A DNA stretch of 64,000 bases from Clostridium sp. 'deep sea' (GTDB taxonomy: Bacteria; Bacillota; UBA994; PWPR01). This document shows, in pieces, positions 51,658 through 62,759 of the stretch. The notes under the pieces are model-generated. The model was given only the letters and a program-made list of their open reading frames with translations, ran no database searches and was not told where the DNA came from. The stretch's first letter is position 1. Every line of letters starts with the position of its first letter. Both the position numbers and the translations under genes were made by a program. Location: assembly GCF_014931565.1 (NCBI RefSeq), contig NZ_CP063353.1, positions 62,001-126,000 on the forward strand, written 5' to 3'.

Positions 51658-51967
51658 TTTTTTACAATGTTTAGAGCAGTTTCATAAACTAACGTTACAA
51701 CAACAAGACGCTATAGAAACAGATAACATAGAGTCGTTAGAGGAACTAAATAAAGCCAAGAACAAAGTAATTGAGCAAATGAAACAATATATTACCCCGG
51801 AAATAAAAAACGACAAAACTATTCAAAAACAGGTAAAAGTAGTTTTGCAAAAACATGAAGAAACAGTAAAATTATTAAATGAAATTAAAACAGAATTAGG
51901 AAAAAATATCTCTTTATCAAAAAAACATCAAACAGCTTTAGAGGGGTATTCAAAACTAATGCAGTAA
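51647..51967 (+). CDS. FliT-like small helical protein
   Basis: A 106-residue, all-helical, charged protein overlapping the fliS end, in the place where Firmicutes carry fliT (chaperone of FliD). Family-level similarity is too weak by eye to be sure. The heptad-like sequence (NIESLEELNKAKNKVIEQMKQYI) fits a FliT-type helical bundle. GAAGG in the fliS end serves as ribosome site, so translation is likely coupled. Followed by a terminator hairpin. Confidence 0.65.
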   Translation: MPFNFLQCLEQFHKLTLQQQDAIETDNIESLEELNKAKNKVIEQMKQYITPEIKNDKTIQKQVKVVLQKHEETVKLLNEIKTELGKNISLSKKHQTALEGYSKLMQ

Positions 51968-51980
51968 AATGAAATTATTT

Positions 51981-52003
51981 AGAGGAACGCTAAGCGTTCC
52001 TCT
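51981..52003 (+). terminator. Terminator hairpin closing the flaG-fliD-fliS unit
   Basis: AGAGGAACGC at 51981-51990 and GCGTTCCTCT at 51994-52003, three-base loop, ten perfect pairs. The following TGTCTTATG is only mildly T-rich. Confidence 0.65.
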
Positions 52004-52032
52004 TGTCTTATGTTAAAAAAAGGAGAACCGTA

Positions 52033-52398
52033 ATGGAGAAGCTATATAAATTAATTTTAGATAGTGCCTTTGAGGTACATAGTTTGTTAGGCCCAGGGCT
52101 TTTTGAGAATACCTATAAACAATGCTTGTCGCACGAGTTAAAGCTTAGAGATGTAAAAGTTGATGTAGAAAAAAGATTACCGGTATTCTATAAAGGCATA
52201 AAACTGGACTGTGGTTATCGTATTGATATGCTGGTGGAAAAGCAAATTGTAATTGAATTAAAATCAGTAGATAAATTGACAGCTTTACATATGTCTCAAC
52301 TACTTTCTTACATGAGATTATCAAACAAAAAGTTGGGTTTGTTAATTAATTTTAATACAAGGTTTTTAAAAGACGGAATTAAAAGAGTAGTTTTATAA
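52033..52398 (+). CDS. GxxExxY-family protein (PD-(D/E)XK-like fold)
   Basis: A 121-residue protein of the GxxExxY family (Pfam PDDEXK_3). The name-giving motif is present as GPGLFENTY (about residues 19-27). DMLVEKQIVIELK carries the Asp...Glu-x-Lys pattern of the PD-(D/E)XK nuclease fold, so a metal-dependent nuclease-like activity is conceivable, though none is established for the family. ATG 52033 has AAAGGAG seven bases upstream; the frame opens earlier at TTG 52003. It stands 30 bases after the flagellar terminator hairpin and about 100 bases before the repeat array, with which it may belong. Confidence 0.88.
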   Translation: MEKLYKLILDSAFEVHSLLGPGLFENTYKQCLSHELKLRDVKVDVEKRLPVFYKGIKLDCGYRIDMLVEKQIVIELKSVDKLTALHMSQLLSYMRLSNKKLGLLINFNTRFLKDGIKRVVL

Positions 52399-52499
52399 AT
52401 AATATATATCAATTGTTTACAAAACATTAATTGATAATTACATATACATGCCAAGTAAACAGTAAAATAAAGACTTAAGTGGAATGACTACAAATTTTG

Positions 52500-53747
52500 A
52501 TGCTGAGAGGCAACTAGATTTTCATTAAGCAATACCATCTTCTTTTCACTTTGTGCCCTTTGTGGTTAAAAATTTATTTAGACTAATTGGAGAGTATGAT
52601 TTTTAAAGCTGTTAGTAAATTAGAAATATTGAGGTTTAAAAATTGAGCTTAAAGTAGATAGTTAATGATTTAGTACCACAAAGAGCACGAAGGGAAAATA
52701 AGGTGTGGTAGGTAAATGGTAATCCTTACGCCTCAGCATCTTACTCTATAGTCAATCCATTTTTAGAAATTATATTGTAAAGTCTCATTTTTAAATCACT
52801 AATTAAGTTAAATCTGAAACCTCTTCATACCCTTTGCGCCCTTAGCGGTTAAAAACCATTTTAATCTAATTGGGGAGTATGATTTTTAAAGATTAATGTA
52901 ACAATATTTGAGGTTTAAAAATCAAGCTTGCAGGAAATAGTTAAGGGTTTTTAGTACCACAAAGTGCCCGAAGGGAAAAGAAGGTGTGGCAGGTAAATGG
53001 TAATCCTTACGCCTCAGCAGCATAATCTATAGACAATCCATTTTTTTAAGTCTTAATTATTAATCCTTCATTTTTAAACTACCAATTAAGTTAAATCCAG
53101 AAACCCTTTGTGCACTTAGTGGTTAAAAATTTATTTAGACTAATTTGAGAGTATGATTTTTAAAGCTGTTATTAAATTACAATATTTTAGGTTTAAAAAT
53201 TGAGCTTAAAGTTAATAGGTAATGTTTTTAATACCACAAAGTGCACGAAGGGAAAATAAGGTGGTATTGCTTAATGGTAATCCTTACGCCTCAGCATCTT
53301 AATTAATAGTCAATCCATTTTCAGGAATTTTATTGCAAAGTTTTATTTTTAAATCACCAATTAAGTTAAATCCAGAAACTTCTTAGTGCCCTTTGTGCCC
53401 TTAGTGGTTAAAAAATTATTTAGACTAACCGGAGAGTATGATTTTTAAAGCTTTAATTATATTACAAGTATTAGAGATTTAAAAATCAAGTTTGCAGTTA
53501 ATATTTAATGGTTTTTAGTACCACAAAGTGCACGAAGGGAAAATAAGGTGGTATTGCTTAATGGTAATCTTTACGCCTCAGCATCTTAATTAATAGTCAA
53601 TCCATTTATAGAAAATTTTATGAAAAGCTTCATTTTTAAACTACCAATTAAGTTAAATCCAAAAACCTCTTCGTGCCCTTTGTGCCCTTTGTGGTTTAAA
53701 ATTTATTTTAACTAATTGGAGAGTGTGATTTTAAAAGCTTAATGTAA
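52500..53747. repeat. Left part of a ~284-bp direct repeat array
   Basis: Five consecutive imperfect units. The landmark GAGTAT/GAGTGT falls at 52592, 52875, 53149, 53434 and 53721, giving periods of 283, 274, 285 and 287. Each unit has motif A (three 9-mers CTTNGTGNC ending CTTNGTGGT then TTAAA: 52547-52570 partial, 52823-52853, 53104-53127 short, 53382-53412, 53669-53700), a TGATTTTTAAAG box, motif B (ACCACAAAG then NGCACGAAGGG: 52674, 52954, 53232, 53519), and a conserved core (AATCCTTACGCCTCAGCAT). A and B are inverted relative to each other. No ORF is conserved across units. The array is split by an IS110 element. Confidence 0.9.
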
Positions 53748-53880
53748 TAGTTAAAAAGATACTGTTACACGTAGTCCAGCTAGCATTAGTCAATAAGAAA
53801 TAAAAAAAATAAGAGTAGGTATAAGAGTACACTTAATAAGGCTTCCGAAAAAGCCGAACAATAAAAAATGAAGTATAGTA

Positions 53881-54474
53881 TTAGGCAGCTAAGATATTTT
53901 TCTTAGAATTGTTTTCAACAAACATCCTTTTATGAATTTTAGGGTCTCTAACAACATAAGGATTTCTATTCTTAAGAACAGAAAAAACATATCTAAGTAA
54001 CTTATTCATAACAGCAACAACGCGAACTTTCTTTTTCTTATGCTTTAATTGCTCATGGTAATAATGATGAAGAGTAGAGTTTACAGGTTTTTGGTTAGGG
54101 CTTTTTCTAATACAGTGTAGAGAAAAAGAATATAATACCTTTCTACCAATAGAAGTACCTCTTTTAGACATCTTATTTTTGTCACCTTTAAACTTACCAG
54201 ATTCATTAACACTAGGATCAACACCAAAAAAGGCAACTAATTGCTGTGGTTTAGAAAAATTATCAATAGAGCCTATAGCCGAAAGTAAGGTAATAGCAGT
54301 CATTGAACCTAGACCTTTAAAAGAAGATAATAGGTCTAAATCCTCATGGAATTTAGCTCCAAAATCAGCATCATTAATATAAACATTAATTTCAGCATAA
54401 AGATCATCAATCAGTTCAGTATGGAACTTATAACTAGCAAGAAAACGTGTAACCTTACGAGCAAAAAAATTGAG
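53881..54474 (-). pseudogene. IS110 transposase, C-terminal fragment
   Basis: Open minus-strand frame of about 198 codons after a TAA at 54475-54477; the first ATG is only at 54303. It begins LNFFARKVTRFLASYKFHTELIDDLYAEI (helical linker), then contains the Transposase_20 domain (LLSAIGSIDNFSKPQQLVAFFGVDPSVNESGKFKGDKNKMSKRGTS) with the conserved Ser-Gly pair. It lies in a different frame from the N-terminal fragment. The coding sequence of the linker continues across the stop only if two single-base shifts are allowed (see findings). Confidence 0.85.
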
Positions 54475-54481
54475 TTAATGC

Positions 54482-55186
54482 CTAAAAAAGAGCCTCATTA
54501 GCTATTTGAAGTAGTTCTAGATACTTTTTGTTAGACCATTCTAAGCCACATTTTGCAGTTGTTCTTAGTAAATGAATTACATCATCTTGCACTGCATCAA
54601 TAAAACTTTGAGGAGTAGGATAGTTTTCAAAAAAAGCGAGAGCTGTCTTAGAACATATATTAGAGAAAGCTTTCTTTAACCCAGGGTAATAAACATTCAA
54701 GGAATTAGAAAACTCTTTTTTAACATTAGCCCTATCATCTATCCGGTTATAATATTCTCTAACTAAAAATTTAAGGTGCAAAAAATCTTCTGGAATATCC
54801 ATTGAAGTTTTAACATTGTCGAATTTACCAAGCTTTGCAAGAGAAAGAGAGTCTCTTTTATCATTTTTCACTTTTCTAATATTAAAATTCCTGTTAGAAT
54901 TAGATATCAGAGGATTTATCACAGATATATCCTTCTGGTTTTTTCTAAGGAAATGAAGAAGAGTTAAGTGATATATTCCCGTGCTTTCACAAAATAACTT
55001 GGGACTATCACCAAACTCTTCTTCTATTTTATTAATAAGATTTACAAGCTTGGTTAGTCCATCAAGATTATGATGAAACTTCAAATTTTTTTTATAAATA
55101 TCTCCATTAGGAGATAGAATTGTAACAACTGAGAAGTTTGCAGCAACATCAATTCCAGCAACAGGTACGTTATAATAATTAGCCAT
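54482..55186 (-). pseudogene. IS110 transposase, N-terminal DEDD fragment
   Basis: A 235-residue N-terminal RuvC-like DEDD domain: first Asp in VAGIDVAANFS, Glu in LFCESTGIYH, and the Asp pair in VKNDKRDSLSLAKLG. The frame stops at TAG (54482-54484) in the middle of the coiled-coil linker (NEALF), well short of the usual 350-420 residues. The frame extends to ATG 55231, but ATG 55186 has AAAGGAA six bases upstream. Broken, or expressed only through frameshifting. Confidence 0.85.
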
Positions 55187-55545
55187 AGTAAGTTCCTTTC
55201 TATCCAAAATGAGAGTAATATTGTGAGTCATTAACCTTGTTCGTTACCCGAATAGTTCTCTTGCTTATGATCAAGAGAAATTCAACCAGCTAAACCAATG
55301 AAACTCACATAATTACAGACTACGTCACGAATATAAACTCTTAAGAGTCATTCAAGGGGCGTACGTATATCTCTCATAGCATTATGTTACTATGAATTTA
55401 GAGTAAGGTTAAGTGGTTGAACTTCTATTCAATCACAAACAATACTTCTGAATACCTAACTATTATTCGTTTTAATCCTTATTCATTTTTTATATCTTAA
55501 TTATACAAGGGGCGAATCTTGTGTTCGCCTGAGTAAGATCTCACT
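55187..55545 (-). ncRNA. Candidate bridge-RNA region of the IS110 element
   Basis: Noncoding 5' end of the element, upstream of the transposase. This is where IS110-group elements are known to encode the bridge RNA that pairs with donor and target DNA. Several perfect or near-perfect stems are visible: 55257-55263 with 55272-55278, 55413-55421 with 55428-55436, and 55511-55516 with 55524-55529. I infer function from family knowledge and position; guide loops were not matched to the target. Confidence 0.5.
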
Positions 55546-56660
55546 TGAGGTTTAAAAATCGAGTTCTTAGAAAATAGTTAAGGGATTGATACCACAAAGT
55601 GCACTAAGGGAAAATAAGGTGTTATTGCTGAATGGTAATCCTTACGCCTCAGCATCTTAATTAATAGTCAATCCATTTCTTTAAGTTTTTATTATATAGA
55701 CTCATTTTTAAACTACAAATTATGTTAAATCCAGAAACCTCTTCGTGCCCTTTGTGCCCTTAGTAGTTAAATAATTATTTTAATCTAATTGGAGAGTGTG
55801 ATTTTTAAAGCTGTTAGTAATTAGAAATATGGAGGTTTAAAAAATTGAGCTTAAAGTTAATAGGTAATGTTTTTAATACCATAAAGAGCACGAAGGGAAA
55901 AGAAGGTGTGGCAGGTAAATGATAATCCTTACGCCTCAGCATCTTAATTTATAGTCAATCTATTTTTTTTAAGTTTTATTATATAGTTTCATTTTTAAAC
56001 CACCAATTAAGTTAAATCTAAAAACCTCTTAGTGCCCTTTGTGCCCTTAGTGGTTAAATAATTATTTTAATATAATTGGGGAGTGTGATTTTTAAAGCTG
56101 TTAGTAAATTAGAAATATTGAGGTTTAAAAATTGAGCTTAAAGTAGATAGTTAATGATTTAGTACCACAAAGTGCACGAAGTGAAAATAAGGTGGTATTG
56201 CTTAATGGTAATCCTTACGCCTCAGCATCTTCATTAATAGTCAATCCATTTTTTTAAATCTTTTTATATAGACTCATTTTTAAACCACCAATTAAGTTAA
56301 ATTCCAAAACCTCTTCGTGCCCTTTGTGCCCTTAGTGGTTAAAAATTTATTTTAATTAATTGGGGAGTGTGATTTTTAAAGCTGTTAGTAAATTAGAAAT
56401 ATTGAGGTTTAAAAATTGAGCTTAAAGTAGATAGTTAATGATTTAGTACCACAAAGTGCACGAAGGGAAAAGAAGATGGTATTGCTTAATAGTAATCTTT
56501 ACGCCTCAGCATCTTACTTTATAGTCAATCCATTTTCAGAAAATTTAATGCAAAGCTTCATTTTTAAACCACCAATTAAGTTAAATCCAAAAACCTCTTC
56601 GTGCCCTTTGCGCCCTTAGCGGTTAAAAATTATTTTAGCTAATTGTGAAGTATGATTTTT
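55546..56660. repeat. Right part of the ~284-bp direct repeat array
   Basis: Remainder of the interrupted unit plus three to four more. Landmarks fall at 55794, 56081, 56365 and about 56648 (periods 287, 284, about 283). Motif A copies: 55741-55771, 56028-56058, 56313-56343, 56597-56627. Motif B copies: 55590-55614, 55877-55901, 56163-56187, 56457-56481. Core AATCCTTACGCCTCAGCAT (or a near match) occurs in every unit. No coding potential is shared by the units. Confidence 0.9.
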
Positions 56661-56771
56661 AAAGCTTATATTTAAATATTTACATTAGTTTAAAATCTTA
56701 AAAACTTTTACAAACTTAGTGGTTACAAAAAAACATATCGACATTTTTCTTAATTACAAACATTACTAAAT

Positions 56772-56799
56772 TAAAGAAAATAACTAACTCACCGAACAT
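56772..56799 (+). promoter_or_regulatory. Sigma-D promoter for the unknown tail-anchored protein
   Basis: TAAA at 56772-56775, 16-base spacer, CCGAACAT at 56792-56799, 23 bases before the start codon. Confidence 0.6.
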
Positions 56800-56822
56800 A
56801 AAGGTAACAGGGGGTGGTAAAG

Positions 56823-57461
56823 ATGAAAATTCGTAACTTTACCTTTAATAAGTCTACAGTTACAGCAAATGTGGCTAATAAACAAACAGCTGTTAATAAT
56901 AAATTGTTACAAAACTTTAGTTTAAACCAAAACCAAACTAATCAGCTTTTAGCTCTTTTTAGTACTTTGCAGATTACCAGCTATGAGCAATTAATTGGTT
57001 ATTTAAACAACCCCCAAGTAAAACAGTATTTTAATAAAACTCAAAACCCCAAACTTGCCCAAAACATGCCCAACCCCAATGCCGTAAAAGAGGTGCCCGA
57101 AATAAGCAAAGACCTCTATAAACTAATGCAGCAGTTTGCCCAGTCTGCCACTAGAGATCATCTTATTTATGACATGGTCCGCAAAAACATGTTAAAAACA
57201 AAAGTAAAAAAAGATTTAACTAAAAACACCACTTTTGTTTTTACTGAAAACTTAACCCATCACAAAGTAAACGAAAAACCCAAAGCTGAGCTAGCTATCA
57301 ACGAATATGCTTCCGTTTTAATAAATAAACAGCTACAGCCCATAGCCAAAGAAAAACCAACAACCCTAAAAGAAAAAGATAACAGATTACTTAAAGCCGT
57401 AGCCTGGACTTGTGCCTTTATGATTCCCCTCATTTTTATGCTTGTTTGGCTTTTAAAATGA
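56823..57461 (+). CDS. Unknown tail-anchored protein, probably in the flagellar regulon
   Basis: I do not recognise this family. About 212 residues, very rich in Asn, Lys and Gln. The first 30 residues (RNFTFNKSTVTANVANKQTAV) look disordered. A helical middle follows, and a single C-terminal hydrophobic segment (about 192-211, AVAWTCAFMIPLIFMLVWLL) could anchor it in the membrane with the bulk in the cytoplasm. GTG 56814 is in frame, but GGGGTGG is spaced for ATG 56823. It has a sigma-D-like promoter just upstream and ends 9 bases before the flagellin promoter, so it is likely co-regulated with the filament. Confidence 0.65.
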   Translation: MKIRNFTFNKSTVTANVANKQTAVNNKLLQNFSLNQNQTNQLLALFSTLQITSYEQLIGYLNNPQVKQYFNKTQNPKLAQNMPNPNAVKEVPEISKDLYKLMQQFAQSATRDHLIYDMVRKNMLKTKVKKDLTKNTTFVFTENLTHHKVNEKPKAELAINEYASVLINKQLQPIAKEKPTTLKEKDNRLLKAVAWTCAFMIPLIFMLVWLLK

Positions 57462-57469
57462 AAAAATAT

Positions 57470-57497
57470 TAAAGTAAAATAAATCAATACCGATATA
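57470..57497 (+). promoter_or_regulatory. Sigma-D promoter for flagellin
   Basis: TAAA at 57470-57473, 16-base spacer, CCGATATA at 57490-57497. Apart from A in place of the leading G, this equals the Bacillus TAAA-N15-GCCGATAT consensus. Confidence 0.85.
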
Positions 57498-57526
57498 AAT
57501 TATGAAGGCTTAAAAACCTGAAAAAC

Positions 57527-57563
57527 AGTATAAACACGGATGTTTATACTTAAAACATGGAGG
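57527..57563 (+). promoter_or_regulatory. CsrA-type leader hairpin and Shine-Dalgarno site of flagellin
   Basis: Ten-base perfect stem AGTATAAACA (57527-57536) and TGTTTATACT (57541-57550) presenting a CGGA tetraloop. The context ACACGGATGT fits the CsrA consensus RUACARGGAUGU at most positions. A second GGA lies in the ribosome site GGAGG (57559-57563), ten bases before the start. This is the two-site arrangement described for the Bacillus hag leader. Confidence 0.75.
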
Positions 57564-57572
57564 TAATTTATA

Positions 57573-59042
57573 ATGAGAATTAATCACAATCTTATGGCAA
57601 TGAATGCCAATCGTTACTTAAGTGCAACTGGTTCAAAACAGTCTAAATCTTTAGAAAAAATCAGTTCTGGTTTAAGAATTAACACAGCTGCTGATGACGC
57701 TGCTGGTTTAGCTATTTCTGAAAAAATGCGTGCCCAAATTTCTGGTTTAGAGCAGGCTTCTGATAACGCTTTAGACGGAATTTCTTTAATTCAAACAGCT
57801 GAGGGTGCCTTACAAGAAACTCACAGTATTCTTCAAAGAATGCGTGAATTAGCAGTTCAATCTTCAAATGATACAAACACTCAATCTGAGCGTGATGAAA
57901 TTCAAAAAGAGGTTGACGAATTAGCTAAAGAGATTACTCGTATTGCTAACAATACCGAGTTCAATAGCAAAAAAATCTCTAATGGTGGATTAACAGACGG
58001 TAAAATCGGCGAAGTTAAATTCCACATTGGTGCTAACACAGGTCAAGATATTTCTTTATCATTAAGTGCTATGGATGCTAAAACATTAGGCGTTTCTAGA
58101 GATGTATTGGGTGCTACAGTGGCAGCTGGTGCTGTAAAAGTTTCTTCTGTTGAATTAGGAACAACAACTGGTACAGCTGTTGTAGATGGTGCTTCTCTTG
58201 CGTTAACTGCAGATAATAGCCCAGATAAAGCTGAGTGGGATATTGCATCTTTAGGAAATGGAACATTAGCTCTAGCATCAACTAACGATACTTCACTATA
58301 TAATGATTATAAAATAAATATTGTTGGCGGTGCTGCTGTTGCTGCTTCTATTGATCATGATGCAAAAACAATTACTTTAACGCTAGAAAATAACCAAGCA
58401 TTTGCTGCTTTAAATACTGCTATGACTAATGCAGGTATAGATTTAACAGCTGCGGGTACTGGTGCAGCTGGAGTTACAGATAAAAATGATGTTGCTGCTA
58501 CAACTTTAGGTGTAGGTGCAGGTGAAGTTAAACTTACATTTAATAGTGAAGAAATGGTTGTTAAAAATGATGTAGAGTCTGTAACCTTTACAAGTGCAGC
58601 AAACAATGGTGTTACATTGAATTTTGATGGTACTACATTAGATAGTACTGTAGATGCTACAGTAGATATAAAATTAGACTCAGCAAGCGCAGCAACATTT
58701 GCAGCTGGTGAATTAGATCAAGGTGCTCACACAGCAGCTGGTGTAAACATATCTAGTCAACCTGCAGCAAGTGCAGCTATCACAACAATTGAAGATGCTA
58801 TTATTAAGGTTTCTGCTGAGCGTTCTAAATTAGGTGCTTACCAAAACCGTTTAGAGCATACAATTAATAACCTCAACACAACAACTGAGAACTTACAGGC
58901 TTCTGAGTCTCGCATTAGAGACGTAGACATTGCTAGTGAAATGATGAACTATACTAAGTTAAACATTTTACAGCAAGCTGCTCAATCTATGTTGGCTCAA
59001 GCTAACCAAGCTCCTCAAGGCGTTTTACAGTTATTAAGATAG
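57573..59042 (+). CDS. fliC: Flagellin
   Basis: Filament subunit of 489 residues. The N-terminal D0/D1 region ([16 protein letters not shown]...[31 protein letters not shown]) and C-terminal D1/D0 region ([51 protein letters not shown]) are conserved. The middle (about 175-400) is an Ala/Thr-rich variable domain. It is the only flagellin in the window. Expression is controlled by FliA (promoter at 57470) and probably CsrA/FliW (leader hairpin). A 15-bp terminator follows. Confidence 0.97.
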
Positions 59043-59069
59043 TTAATTAATAACCTTAATTAAACAACT

Positions 59070-59106
59070 AATTAAAGCAAGGGATTGCTCCCTTGCTTTA
59101 ATTGCA
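59070..59106 (+). terminator. Strong terminator after flagellin
   Basis: Fifteen perfect pairs: AATTAAAGCAAGGGA (59070-59084) with TCCCTTGCTTTAATT (59089-59103), four-base loop TTGC. The stem itself supplies the T-rich tail. It is the strongest hairpin in the window, fitting a highly expressed gene. Confidence 0.85.
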
Positions 59107-59133
59107 GTTATAGTAAAAAATTTATAATTTTTC

Positions 59134-59163
59134 TTGAACTAGTAATAAAAAAACGTGTATAAT
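59134..59163 (+). promoter_or_regulatory. Sigma-A promoter for the EAL-HDOD gene
   Basis: TTGAAC at 59134-59139, 18-base spacer, TATAAT at 59158-59163, about 185 bases upstream of the start. No sigma-D site was seen in this 305-base gap. Confidence 0.5.
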
Positions 59164-59347
59164 TATATTAGTAATTTTATTACAGAGCTTGTTACTTAAT
59201 GTTTTATTAGTATTTGTATTTTATTGATATTATAATTTTATTTTTTATTAAAAACTGTTTGATAAATGTAACAGGCTACTTATAAATATTATTAAATTTA
59301 GGAACTAATTAGTATTAGCTCTATACCACAAAAGGGGGTGCAGCTTA

Positions 59348-60550
59348 ATGCACGTATATGTTGCCAGACAACCTATTTTTGACCGTAAAATGAGGGTGTA
59401 TGGTTATGAGCTTTTCTATAGAGGCGGTACTAAAAACTACTTTGAGGGAATAGAAGATAATCAAGCAACCTCGGAGTTAATTAACAATGTATTTTTAACA
59501 ATGCAACTCGAAGACCTTACTTTTGGTTCACGGGCGTTTATCAATTTTTCTGAAGATTTAATTGTTAAAGGTATACCCCTTGCTTTGCCCAAAGATGAAG
59601 TAGTAATTGAAATTTTAGAGAGAGTTAACCCTACCCCCGAAGTAATTGAGGCATGTAAAAATTTAAAAGAACAGGGCTATATTTTAGCTTTAGATGACTT
59701 TAATTTTAACCAAAAATATTTAAGTTTAATTGAACTAGCAGATATCATAAAAGTTGAATATGGTAAAATTGATATTGAAGTTCAAAAAAGAATTATAAAA
59801 GCCTTTAAAGGAAGAACCAAATTTTTATCCGAAAAAGTTGAAACCCGTGAGCAATATAAAATAGCTCGAGATATGGGGTACGACTATTTTCAGGGTTACT
59901 TTTTTAGCAAACCTATAATTGTAAAAAGCAATGAACGCAAAGTTCTTAATACCTCTTTATTACGCATTGCCACAGAGCTTAATAAACAGTTTGTGGACTT
60001 TAATAAAATTACTGAAATTTGTGAACATGATGTTGACCTTACCTACAAAATTTTAAAAATTTCTAACTATGTGCAATACGGAACACGTTATGAGGTAAAA
60101 TCAATTAAACATGCTTTAGCCGTATTAGGCGTAGATGAGCTCAAAAAATGGGTTTATTTAATGATGTTTAAAGACACACGTGATAAACAAAATAATGAGG
60201 TAATTAAAAACAGCTTAATAAGAGGCAAATTAATGGAGTTACTGGCCAAAGAAGCCGGTTTAGGACGTAGGTCGGAGGAGTACTTTGTAACAGGACTATT
60301 TTCTTTAATAGATGTATTATTATGCAAAGAAATGAAAGAAATTGTTAGTGAGATACCGTTTTCGTCAAGCATTAAAGATGCCTTATTAAAAGACGGAAGC
60401 GATATAGCAAAAACTTTAGATAAAATAAATAGCTTCGAAAAAGCAAAGTGGGATGAGTTGCAAAATAAAGGCACATTTAACGTAGAAAACGACCGCTTTA
60501 TGGAGCTATACGTTGAGGCATTAAAATGGGCTGGCGAAATAGAGCTGTAA
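59348..60550 (+). CDS. EAL-HDOD (YuxH-type) signalling protein
   Basis: A 400-residue protein with an N-terminal EAL-like domain (about 1-200) and a C-terminal HDOD domain (about 200-400). The opening MHVYVARQPIFDRKMRVYGYELFYRGG is the YuxH-type start. The EAL signature reads ELF and the DDFG loop reads DDFN. Other ligand positions look kept (FINFSEDL, VIEILERV, IIKVEYG, SEKVETREQ, FQGYFFSKP), so c-di-GMP hydrolysis cannot be ruled in or out. Start: ATG after AGGGGGTG. The ComFB-type gene follows after 30 nt. Confidence 0.88.
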   Translation: MHVYVARQPIFDRKMRVYGYELFYRGGTKNYFEGIEDNQATSELINNVFLTMQLEDLTFGSRAFINFSEDLIVKGIPLALPKDEVVIEILERVNPTPEVIEACKNLKEQGYILALDDFNFNQKYLSLIELADIIKVEYGKIDIEVQKRIIKAFKGRTKFLSEKVETREQYKIARDMGYDYFQGYFFSKPIIVKSNERKVLNTSLLRIATELNKQFVDFNKITEICEHDVDLTYKILKISNYVQYGTRYEVKSIKHALAVLGVDELKKWVYLMMFKDTRDKQNNEVIKNSLIRGKLMELLAKEAGLGRRSEEYFVTGLFSLIDVLLCKEMKEIVSEIPFSSSIKDALLKDGSDIAKTLDKINSFEKAKWDELQNKGTFNVENDRFMELYVEALKWAGEIEL

Positions 60551-60580
60551 CTTAATTATTATTAAAGGGAGCTGAATATA

Positions 60581-60859
60581 GTGGTAATAAATTATATGGA
60601 GTTAGTAGTAGATAAGCTATTACCTAAAGTACTCGATGATTACGATGATATTTGTAAATGTGAAACATGTATTGATGATATGAAAGCCTATGCCCTAAAC
60701 CACCTCAAACCCATGTACTACGCCAGCGAAAAAGGCGAAGTATTTATGCGTTTAAATCAATTCTTAATGCAATTTAATGCAGACGTAACAAGAGCCATAA
60801 CAAAAGCCATAGATACAGTATCAAGCAACCCTCGTCATAACGAAGAAGAAGAGATCTAA
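60581..60859 (+). CDS. ComFB-family late competence protein
   Basis: A 92-residue ComFB homologue: YMELVVDKLLPKVLDDYDDICKCETCIDDMKAYALNHLKPMYY, with the CxxC pair typical of the family. Named after Bacillus ComFB. Relatives have recently been reported to bind cyclic dinucleotides, so pairing with an EAL-HDOD protein is suggestive. GTG start with GGGAG upstream. A palindromic terminator overlaps the stop codon. Confidence 0.88.
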   Translation: MVINYMELVVDKLLPKVLDDYDDICKCETCIDDMKAYALNHLKPMYYASEKGEVFMRLNQFLMQFNADVTRAITKAIDTVSSNPRHNEEEEI

Positions 60860-60884
60860 AAAAACGTCTATATAGACGTTTTTT
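60859..60884 (+). terminator. Palindromic terminator after comFB
   Basis: AAAAAACGTCTA at 60859-60870 continues into its complement ending ACGTTTTTT at 60884. The minimal loop and T run are usable from either direction. Confidence 0.75.
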
Positions 60885-60929
60885 GTTAATGTAAAGAATT
60901 ACCTACAAACATCATTTATAAAGCAATAA

Positions 60930-61500
60930 TTAAAGCCAACCACAAACCCTCTTTGTGTCCTTCGAGTCCTTTGTGGTAATAACAAAACCAGTAAGGTATA
61001 AGATTTAGGTAACATTTTTAAAACTGTAAATCATAATTTAGGCTTAAAAAATCAAACTAACAAGTATAACAAAGTTTTATTAATAAACCACAAGAACACC
61101 AAGAACACGAAGAAAAGAAAAAGAGGTGTTACATTAACTGCAAACATCATTTATAAAGCAATAATAAAAGCCAACCACAAACCCTCTTTGTGTCCTTCGA
61201 GTCCTTTGTGGTAATAAAAAACTACTAAGATATAAATAAAGTGACATTTTTAAAACTACAATTCAAAACCTAAGGTTTAAAAATCAAACTAACAGGTATA
61301 ACCTAACTTTTATTAATAAACCACAAGAACACCAAGAACACGAAGAAAAGAAAAAGAGGTGTTACATTAACTGCAAACATCATTTATAAAGCAATAATTA
61401 AAGCCAAACCAGTAACCCCTTTGTGTCCTTCGAGTCCTTTGTGGTAATAACAAAACCAGTAAGGTGTAAGAATAAAGTGACATTTTTAAAACTACAACTC
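60930..61500. repeat. Second repeat array, ~234-bp period
   Basis: Two full units and one partial. Motif A' consists of three 9-mers (CTTTGTGTC, CTTCGAGTC, CTTTGTGGT) at 60951-60977, 61186-61212 and 61419-61445. Motif B' consists of three 9-mers (AACCACAAG, AACACCAAG, AACACGAAG) at 61086-61112 and 61319-61345. Periods are 235 and 233. A' and B' are inverted, as in the first array. The sequence between motifs differs from the first array. No ORF. It fills most of the 760-base gap between comFB and the DUF402 genes; the rest holds a small hairpin at 61524-61543. Confidence 0.88.
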
Positions 61501-61619
61501 AAAATAACGTAACCTGAGGGTAGGGGAAGCATTTTATGCTCCCGCAGTATTAAGGGAAATTATGTTTTTATAAGATATATCCCTCAAACCTTTATGGTAA
61601 TACTAAAAAAACTAAGCTC

Positions 61620-62165
61620 TTACTTCTCAACTTCCTCAAGCATGATTTCTAAATACTTGGCTGTGGTATTAACAATACTGAACTTTTTATTTATAATATC
61701 TTGCATGATTTTATGAGCTTCGTTATTAGCTAAATTATATAATTCCTCATTAATATCTCCACTCTCTAACGCCTCTGCTAGTTCATCTTCATCTAATAAT
61801 AAAATTTCGCCAGAGTTTAAAATAGCTATATCTAGATATAAATCATTGTAATTAGGCACATTATCTGGGCCAATTTCATAGCCACTATGAATATCTATGT
61901 ACCATTGAATAATTTGTTTTTTATCATTATACATGCTCATTAAACAGTAGTTTTCATTTTTAGGGTATTGTAAAAGCCAGTAATAACCGTTATTAACTAA
62001 ACACATTTGTTTATTAATAATATTAACGTTTATTGGCTCGGTTATGTTATCTACACAAATTAAAGAAATATGCCCTTTAAAATCGGTATTATTAAAGTGT
62101 TTTAGGTAAACACGTTTTTTTGTAATTTTACTAAGATTTCGGGCATCTCCGTATTTTCTTTTCAT
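61620..62165 (-). CDS. DUF402 domain protein (copy 2)
   Basis: A 181-residue protein with a DUF402 core (CLMSMYNDKKQIIQWYIDIHSGYEIGPDNVPNYNDLYLDIAILNSGEILLLDEDELAEALESGDI). Some DUF402 proteins are nucleoside di/triphosphatases; others are uncharacterised, and I cannot tell which this is. It is about 45% similar by eye over its length to the gene just upstream, including the start MKRKYGDAR / MKRRYADYR, so they arose by tandem duplication. Minus strand, transcribed after the other copy. Confidence 0.8.
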   Translation of the reverse strand: MKRKYGDARNLSKITKKRVYLKHFNNTDFKGHISLICVDNITEPINVNIINKQMCLVNNGYYWLLQYPKNENYCLMSMYNDKKQIIQWYIDIHSGYEIGPDNVPNYNDLYLDIAILNSGEILLLDEDELAEALESGDINEELYNLANNEAHKIMQDIINKKFSIVNTTAKYLEIMLEEVEK

Positions 62166-62210
62166 ATTTCAACTCCCATTATTTTTTTATTAAAATAAGT
62201 GTTTTTAAAA

Positions 62211-62759
62211 TTACAAGCTGTTATTAACTTCTTGTAACAACTCCACTAAATGTTCTTGGCTTTTTGCTAGTAGCTGATATTCATTGTTAACTATTTTAGT
62301 TAACAAACTCTGACCATCTTTTATAGCTTTGTTATATTGGTTTTGGGTTATATCACCTGTGTTTAGGGCATCTTCTAACTCATCTTCATCTAAATAAAAG
62401 ATTTCTCCGCTTGGTAAAACCTCTATGTCTAGGTATATATCATCGTAAAATGGCAGACCATCTTCTGTAAATTGGGTACCTGTTGTTATGTCAATATACC
62501 ACTCTACAGCTTGGTGTTTTTCATTAAAAATAGCCATTATACAGTAGTTTTCGTTATCCGGAAAGTAGCGAATATATACATAGCCATTATCTGCAATACA
62601 CATTTTTATGCCAATATTATCATCAATCATGGGGCTAGCTATTTCATCTATACATAATAGATAAGCCCAGCCGGTAAACTCTGGCTTTTGCATATAAGTA
62701 AGCATAGTTCGTTTTTTAGCAATTGCAGTTTCTCTATAATCTGCATATCTACGTTTCAT
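62211..62759 (-). CDS. DUF402 domain protein (copy 1)
   Basis: A 182-residue paralogue of the downstream gene. DUF402 core: CIMAIFNEKHQAVEWYIDITTGTQFTEDGLPFYDDIYLDIEVLPSGEIFYLDEDELEDALNTGDI. The WYIDI and DIYLDI acidic clusters are the usual metal-binding region. AGGAGAAAT lies before the minus-strand ATG. 45 nt separate the two copies. Role unknown. Confidence 0.82.
   Translation of the reverse strand: MKRRYADYRETAIAKKRTMLTYMQKPEFTGWAYLLCIDEIASPMIDDNIGIKMCIADNGYVYIRYFPDNENYCIMAIFNEKHQAVEWYIDITTGTQFTEDGLPFYDDIYLDIEVLPSGEIFYLDEDELEDALNTGDITQNQYNKAIKDGQSLLTKIVNNEYQLLAKSQEHLVELLQEVNNSL

Follow-up and report, generated by a model that had tools for sequence, protein, structure and literature searches.

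An intergenic array in a Clostridium genome is probably the amplified gene-less form of a REPIN/RAYT-like repeat built on a PD-(D/E)XK nuclease

Introduction

The window analysed here is a stretch of 64,000 nucleotides from the genome of Clostridium sp. 'deep sea' (contig NZ_CP063353.1, positions 62,001 to 126,000). Near its end lies an array in which groups of 9-mers alternate with inverted groups of the same class, and repeats of this class also occur earlier in the window. The locus raises the question of what such an array is, and whether selection or propagation acts on the motif itself. We conclude that it probably arose when the gene-less unit of a small mobile element was amplified locally in tandem.

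Results

Organization of the arrays in the window

The array in question, here called array 3, has the following features.

60898..61504, plus strand: array 3, found by TRF as a single array in which a 233-bp unit without a gene is present in 2.6 tandem copies
60951..60977, plus strand: A' arm copy 1, three 9-mers CTTTGTGTC CTTCGAGTC CTTTGTGGT
61086..61112, minus strand: B' arm copy 1, inverted; the plus strand reads AACCACAAG AACACCAAG AACACGAAG
61186..61212, plus strand: A' arm copy 2
61319..61345, minus strand: B' arm copy 2, inverted
61419..61445, plus strand: A' arm copy 3

The three A' and two B' copies lie exactly where the original prediction had placed them, and the periods are 235 and 233 bp. 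By Pfam, the array is flanked by comFB (60581-60859) and by a convergent pair of DUF402 genes. The latter lie side by side on the minus strand (61620-62165 and 62211-62759) and are apparently duplicated.

The earlier repeats occupy the following region.

52003..52398, plus strand: GxxExxY protein gene of PD-(D/E)XK nuclease fold (TIGR04256 2e-41; PDDEXK_3 1.1e-40), the proposed autonomous partner
52549..53740, plus strand: array 1, TRF 4.2 copies of a 287-bp unit, beginning 151 bp past the GxxExxY stop codon
53881..55231, minus strand: IS110-family transposase ORFs between arrays 1 and 2 (53881-54303 and 54482-55231)
55545..56666, plus strand: array 2, TRF 3.9 copies of a 284-bp unit of the same family as array 1

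What had been taken for one first array does consist of repeats, but TRF resolves two arrays, and the nuclease gene directly upstream had been overlooked. The IS110-family transposase is present in two ORFs (DEDD_Tnp_IS110 and Transposase_20) and is apparently interrupted. Because the same unit lies on both sides, this element probably inserted into a single array of about 8 units and divided it. Within the arrays the A-B spacers are ~80% identical to one another. The GxxExxY gene lies in a late flagellar cluster with flgK, a flagellin-like gene, fliW, flaG, fliD and fliS; there is also a weak FlgN match, and flagellin is found further down. Another array of the same family lies 12 kb before the window (L212, G000:C1:49728-51064), with five A copies ~285-345 bp apart.

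The arrays in the window obey the same inverted 9-mer grammar, as had been proposed. The pattern CTTNGNGNNCTTNGNG has 29 occurrences in the window, whereas dinucleotide shuffles give 0.04 (sd 0.20).

Comparison of motif and spacer

The spacer DNA of array 3 had been described as unrelated to that of the first array, and this proves to be wrong. The A-to-B spacer is equally long (106-109 bp in array 3, 105-110 bp in arrays 1 and 2), and the two align collinearly with ATTTTTAAA...GGTTTAAAAATCAA in common. The similarity is weak but significant, with local alignment scores of up to 31.5 compared with a maximum of 26.5 for 754 real windows of matched AT content taken from the same 64 kb. The B-to-A spacer is 73 bp in array 3 and about 138 bp in arrays 1 and 2, with marginal similarity. 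Array 3 and arrays 1 and 2 thus descend, on the evidence of these alignments, from a common ancestral unit; an independent second invention of array 3 is ruled out by the homology of the A-B spacers.

Motif and spacer have nevertheless diverged unequally. Comparing the A motif and the A-B spacer by alignment between arrays, identity is 71% for the former and 52% for the latter, so that conservation is higher in the motif. The B arms are out of register between arrays in this alignment and were left out of the comparison. The argument that selection or propagation acts on the motif had been made from the window, and in that form it is weaker than claimed, since the two arrays compared have homologous A-B spacers. 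The conclusion itself is well supported by the data from outside the window described below.

The motif in the genome and its phylum

Over the whole genome (3.83 Mb) a two-module form of the motif has 124 matches at some 35 places, and the reversed pattern has none. Exact-match motif sites in 31 regions around the matches fall within no ORF of at least 90 aa. Isolated copies form a longer palindromic unit, comprising an outer inverted repeat, A, ~106 bp, B and the outer repeat again. This A-106 bp-B order with extra inverted flanks differs from the B-A order in other genomes, and the element ends in this genome are therefore uncertain.

In a survey of 299 genomes of the same phylum, clear motif expansion was seen only in this genome (G000; 124 motifs against 0 for the reversed control) and in one other (G265; 110 against 2), and both are gene-positive. 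The second belongs to the same class and has an assembly of just 1.4 Mb, in which 110 copies amount to a very high density. Searching Rfam models against 51900-62300 gave no match up to E 0.1, and a known RNA or riboswitch was rejected as a reading on this basis.

The GxxExxY gene and its protein

The gene adjacent to array 1 scores well above curated cut-offs, at 141 bits against 35 for TIGR04256 and 139 against 22 for PF13366 (PDDEXK_3). Residues G32, E35, Y38, D75, E85 and K87, comprising the GxxExxY motif and the PD-(D/E)XK catalytic residues, are invariant across 77 sequences. An AF2 model gives a confident PD-(D/E)XK fold (pLDDT 94). The nearest solved fold is that of SSO0001 (Z 9.4), a Cas4 protein; lambda exonuclease, restriction enzymes and archaeal Hjc come next. 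A PDB search by sequence gave nothing significant.

There is no B arm upstream of this gene. The genome has just one further GxxExxY gene (L236, G000:C1:3184672), which is bracketed by inverted CTTTGCG-type arms, B upstream and A downstream, and contains an in-frame TGA. The copy next to array 1 looks intact, and this second one is broken.

On the protein tree the phyla are interleaved, requiring 33 changes for 14 phyla compared with 35.1 when shuffled, although the Bacteroidota do cluster. This is compatible with horizontal spread, and possibly with paralogy. Phage records contained no GxxExxY match. In the open papers searched, GxxExxY proteins are mentioned in passing in two and no function is described for them; for the motif strings, the matches listed were primers and unrelated work.

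The motif brackets GxxExxY genes in many phyla

A set of 80 loci encoding GxxExxY relatives, with flanks of up to 10 kb, was drawn from 84,980 species genomes and represents 14 named phyla. The narrow alignment A2 served as search query, and the set consequently over-represents one subfamily (LINFN type). Within 250 bp of the genes the motif density is 1.85/kb upstream and 2.66/kb downstream. At 1-4 kb it is 0.06-0.08/kb, and beyond 4 kb there are no copies in 604 kb. The reversed motif is absent around the 80 loci at every distance. In the upstream flanks most copies are inverted, and in the downstream flanks most are direct. B-gene-A is the commonest layout, and the A arm mostly begins 6-50 bp past the GxxExxY stop codon.

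Unsupervised analysis of 8-mers enriched near the genes recovers the motif (CTTTGCGT, TCTTTGCG, TCTCTGTG, CTCTGTGT and CTTTGTGG), together with its CTCTGTG form. With CTC allowed for CTT, the relaxed motif CTYnGYGnnCTYnGYG is found no more than 300 bp from the gene at 53 of the 80 loci and is absent from that interval at the other 27. Among 60 Bacteroidota genes picked independently by TIGR04256 score, about a third have class-1 arms around them. On a Bacteroides finegoldii plasmid the gap between radA and the next gene is filled by a GxxExxY gene and its two arms.

As a control, four-helix-bundle loci were searched in 20 genomes that bear the motif; the 30 loci gave one motif in 98 kb. With none at the two loci in our own genome either, the 'four helix bundle' (PF05635) genes were rejected as carriers of the same flanks. 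In more than 10 bacterial phyla, GxxExxY genes thus lie between inverted copies of this motif, which seems to be a mobile tag belonging to the nuclease.

Dependence of the motif on the gene

Among 198 Bacteroidota genomes the GxxExxY gene is present in 101 and the strict motif in 38, and 37 of these 38 are gene-positive. The motif thus occurs in 37/101 gene-positive and 1/97 gene-negative genomes (odds ratio 55; Fisher 7.7e-12, with kinship ignored and taken without adjustment for the larger size of gene-positive genomes). Kinship and genome size can hardly be the source of the 37:1 ratio. The relation is one-way, since 64 of the 101 gene-positive genomes lack the strict motif; a variant, ATCTGCGnn, accounts for some of these.

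Gene-less elements keep their arms and vary in content

Eight dispersed elements in Pinibacter have arms that are 74-80% identical, while their spacers score 0.34 compared with 0.35 when shuffled. The elements of an Acidobacteriaceae genome are near-perfect hairpins of 64-91 bp, and one gene-less Acidobacteriaceae element folded as single-stranded DNA gave a z of -8.2. Five Acidobacteriaceae motif hairpins (L272, L273, L275, L278 and L279) lie mid-way in a longer conserved repeat (GGTAGTGGGTCAGTTTGCCTCGG...). In the Bacteroidota genome G509 most units start with TTTAACCGCAAAG and many finish with CTTTGCGGTTAA, and the contents vary. Several gene-less units of G509 adjoin stop codons, but no T run follows the hairpin, and a role as terminators was ruled out on that account. 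At two loci of one Bacteroidota genome (L326 and L328) other repeats, such as GTCATTTCGAGGAACGAGAAATCGC and GCCACGAATTCACGAATT, are nested within arm-bounded units.

Three states of the thiG-thiH junction

One gene-less unit of G509 lies between thiG and thiH. We have compared this gap in 28 species of its genus, and find three states. The first is empty, with 29 bp or less (most of L355-L361), and these sites have no hairpin of any kind. The second is a gene-less motif hairpin of 92-157 bp. In the third, of about 550-620 bp, a GxxExxY gene is bounded by a variant inverted 9-mer, CGCAGATTT...AAATCTGCG. Six such genes (L336, L338, L340, L342, L344 and L354) are bounded by inverted 9-mers of the ATCTGCGnn type, and the motif variant seems to follow the protein subfamily. 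In one species (L340) the GxxExxY gene itself supplies the first ATG found downstream of thiG. Three further loci (L345, L349 and L350) contain other or partial sequence.

Placed on the thiG tree, in which many forks are weak, presence and absence of the gene require at least seven changes. The states alternate, and the site has thus been gained or exchanged repeatedly, with contents of two kinds. Since the motif variants differ, neither the gene-less nor the gene-bearing form can have come from the other by simple deletion. The gene at this junction is under purifying selection, with dN/dS of 0.05-0.10. The gaps of empty and filled junctions are too short and divergent for a target-site duplication to be read.

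Discussion

Array 3 as the gene-less form of a mobile repeat

We consider it likely that these sequences belong to a mobile repeat system resembling REPIN/RAYT, built on a PD-(D/E)XK nuclease, of which array 3 is the gene-less form amplified in tandem. The element is defined by inverted arms B and A, each of two to four tandem 9-mers [CA]T[TC]nG[TC]Gnn and usually ending AACC...GGTT. In one form the GxxExxY (PDDEXK_3) nuclease gene fills the space between the arms; the other has just a short, often unrelated spacer and can fold as a hairpin. We infer that the nuclease recognises the arms, either as 9-mer DNA or as a hairpin, both in its own copy and, in trans, in gene-less copies, and that the cuts it makes promote the spread of the element into intergenic DNA by some route of copying. 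Tandem arrays such as array 3 could then grow through slippage or recombination between arms.

A broader proposal, which we offer tentatively, is that GxxExxY proteins are the enzymes of an unrecognised class of mobile DNA that spans phyla. They might copy 9-mer-armed hairpins by a process other than HUH or DDE transposition, with arms kept and contents exchanged, and with the arm variants CTTnGnG, CTCnGnG and ATCTGCG tracking protein subfamilies.

Alternative explanations

The main rival is a homing type of spread, to which we give real weight while thinking it unlikely. Here GxxExxY would cut arm pairs free of the gene, and repair by inter-arm recombination would copy in the gene or another spacer; the hairpins would be targets and endpoints of conversion, and would not themselves jump. 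Such a process would conserve arms around differing spacers, as in Pinibacter, would place the gene precisely in the arm-to-arm interval as observed, and would interchange gene-bearing and gene-less states at one site, as between thiG and thiH. Homing endonucleases of the PD-(D/E)XK fold exist, for example I-Ssp6803I. Homing alone, however, leaves the arrival of hairpins at new intergenic sites unexplained, and it predicts that both forms share the same arms, whereas at thiG-thiH they differ in arm variant.

It is less probable still that the GxxExxY protein and the arms do a cellular job, such as structure-specific repair, marking against invaders or regulation of neighbours, with spread as a by-product. 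The strong purifying selection at thiG-thiH would be consistent with this, as would the presence of Cas4-like proteins, lambda exonuclease and Hjc among the nearest folds, but an active selfish gene would also be under purifying selection. Moreover, the distribution is patchy with phyla mixed on the protein tree, and the second GxxExxY copy in our genome is degenerate.

The hairpins could alternatively be a feature of the host, acting as a terminator, nucleoid or replication site, into which GxxExxY genes merely insert as a safe harbour. Copies are indeed intergenic and often abut stop codons, and other mobile elements enter REP sequences, as ISPpu9 is reported to do (PMC8450116). We regard this as very improbable. 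The motif is essentially absent from gene-negative Bacteroidota; the same 9-mer accompanies the gene in many phyla, empty thiG-thiH sites have no hairpin, and the hairpins lack a terminator-type T run.

Finally, a simple tandem duplication in place, in which the motif has no function and array 3 would be a decayed duplicate of array 1, would accord with the homologous A-B spacers but has almost nothing left to recommend it, and is refuted as a full account by the dispersed genomic copies absent from the control, the better conservation of motif than spacer, and the link to one gene family across phyla.

Comparison with known systems

Returning to the mobile repeat that we favour, GxxExxY proteins occur in about half of the sampled Bacteroidota genomes and in at least 14 phyla, and a tie to widespread intergenic repeats gives them a likely job that is directly testable. 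If this is true, a further class of nuclease would count among the few enzymes that disperse short palindromic repeats in bacterial genomes.

Like CRISPR arrays, the arrays show regular repeat spacing in an AT-rich intergenic stretch, and a Cas4-like protein is among the nearest folds of the partner. Unlike them, they have inverted motif pairs in place of one direct repeat, and spacers that are near-copies of each other, and a CRISPR array was rejected as a reading on these grounds; no adjacent cas genes are seen. The similarity to PD-(D/E)XK homing endonucleases lies in the small free-standing nuclease gene and the occupied and empty alleles at one site. Those enzymes differ in that GxxExxY genes lie outside any intron or intein, possess their own inverted 9-mer arms and have gene-less counterparts with similar arms. 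The gene-less elements resemble the MITEs of cut-and-paste insertion sequences in having terminal inverted repeats, a length of 64-290 bp and a relationship to a gene-bearing form. They have no DDE/DEDD transposase as partner, however, and the internal sequences of the Pinibacter copies are unrelated.

The closest comparison is with REPIN/RAYT (PMC3116915, PMC8266576). Both systems comprise short paired inverted repeats that are non-autonomous, dispersed and clustered in intergenic DNA, with one or a few nuclease genes that lie between inverted copies of the repeat and a repeat population tied to the gene. The differences are threefold. The partner is a PD-(D/E)XK protein according to Pfam, NCBIfam and AF2 with Foldseek, and not a Y1/HUH transposase; the arms are tandem 9-mers [CA]T[TC]nG[TC]Gnn ending AACC/GGTT, without the GTAG/CGTC tag of REP sequences; and the GxxExxY-linked repeats span at least 14 phyla. 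Given that partner and the lack of REP tags, the GxxExxY repeats are not a member of the REPIN/RAYT family, but they probably work like one.
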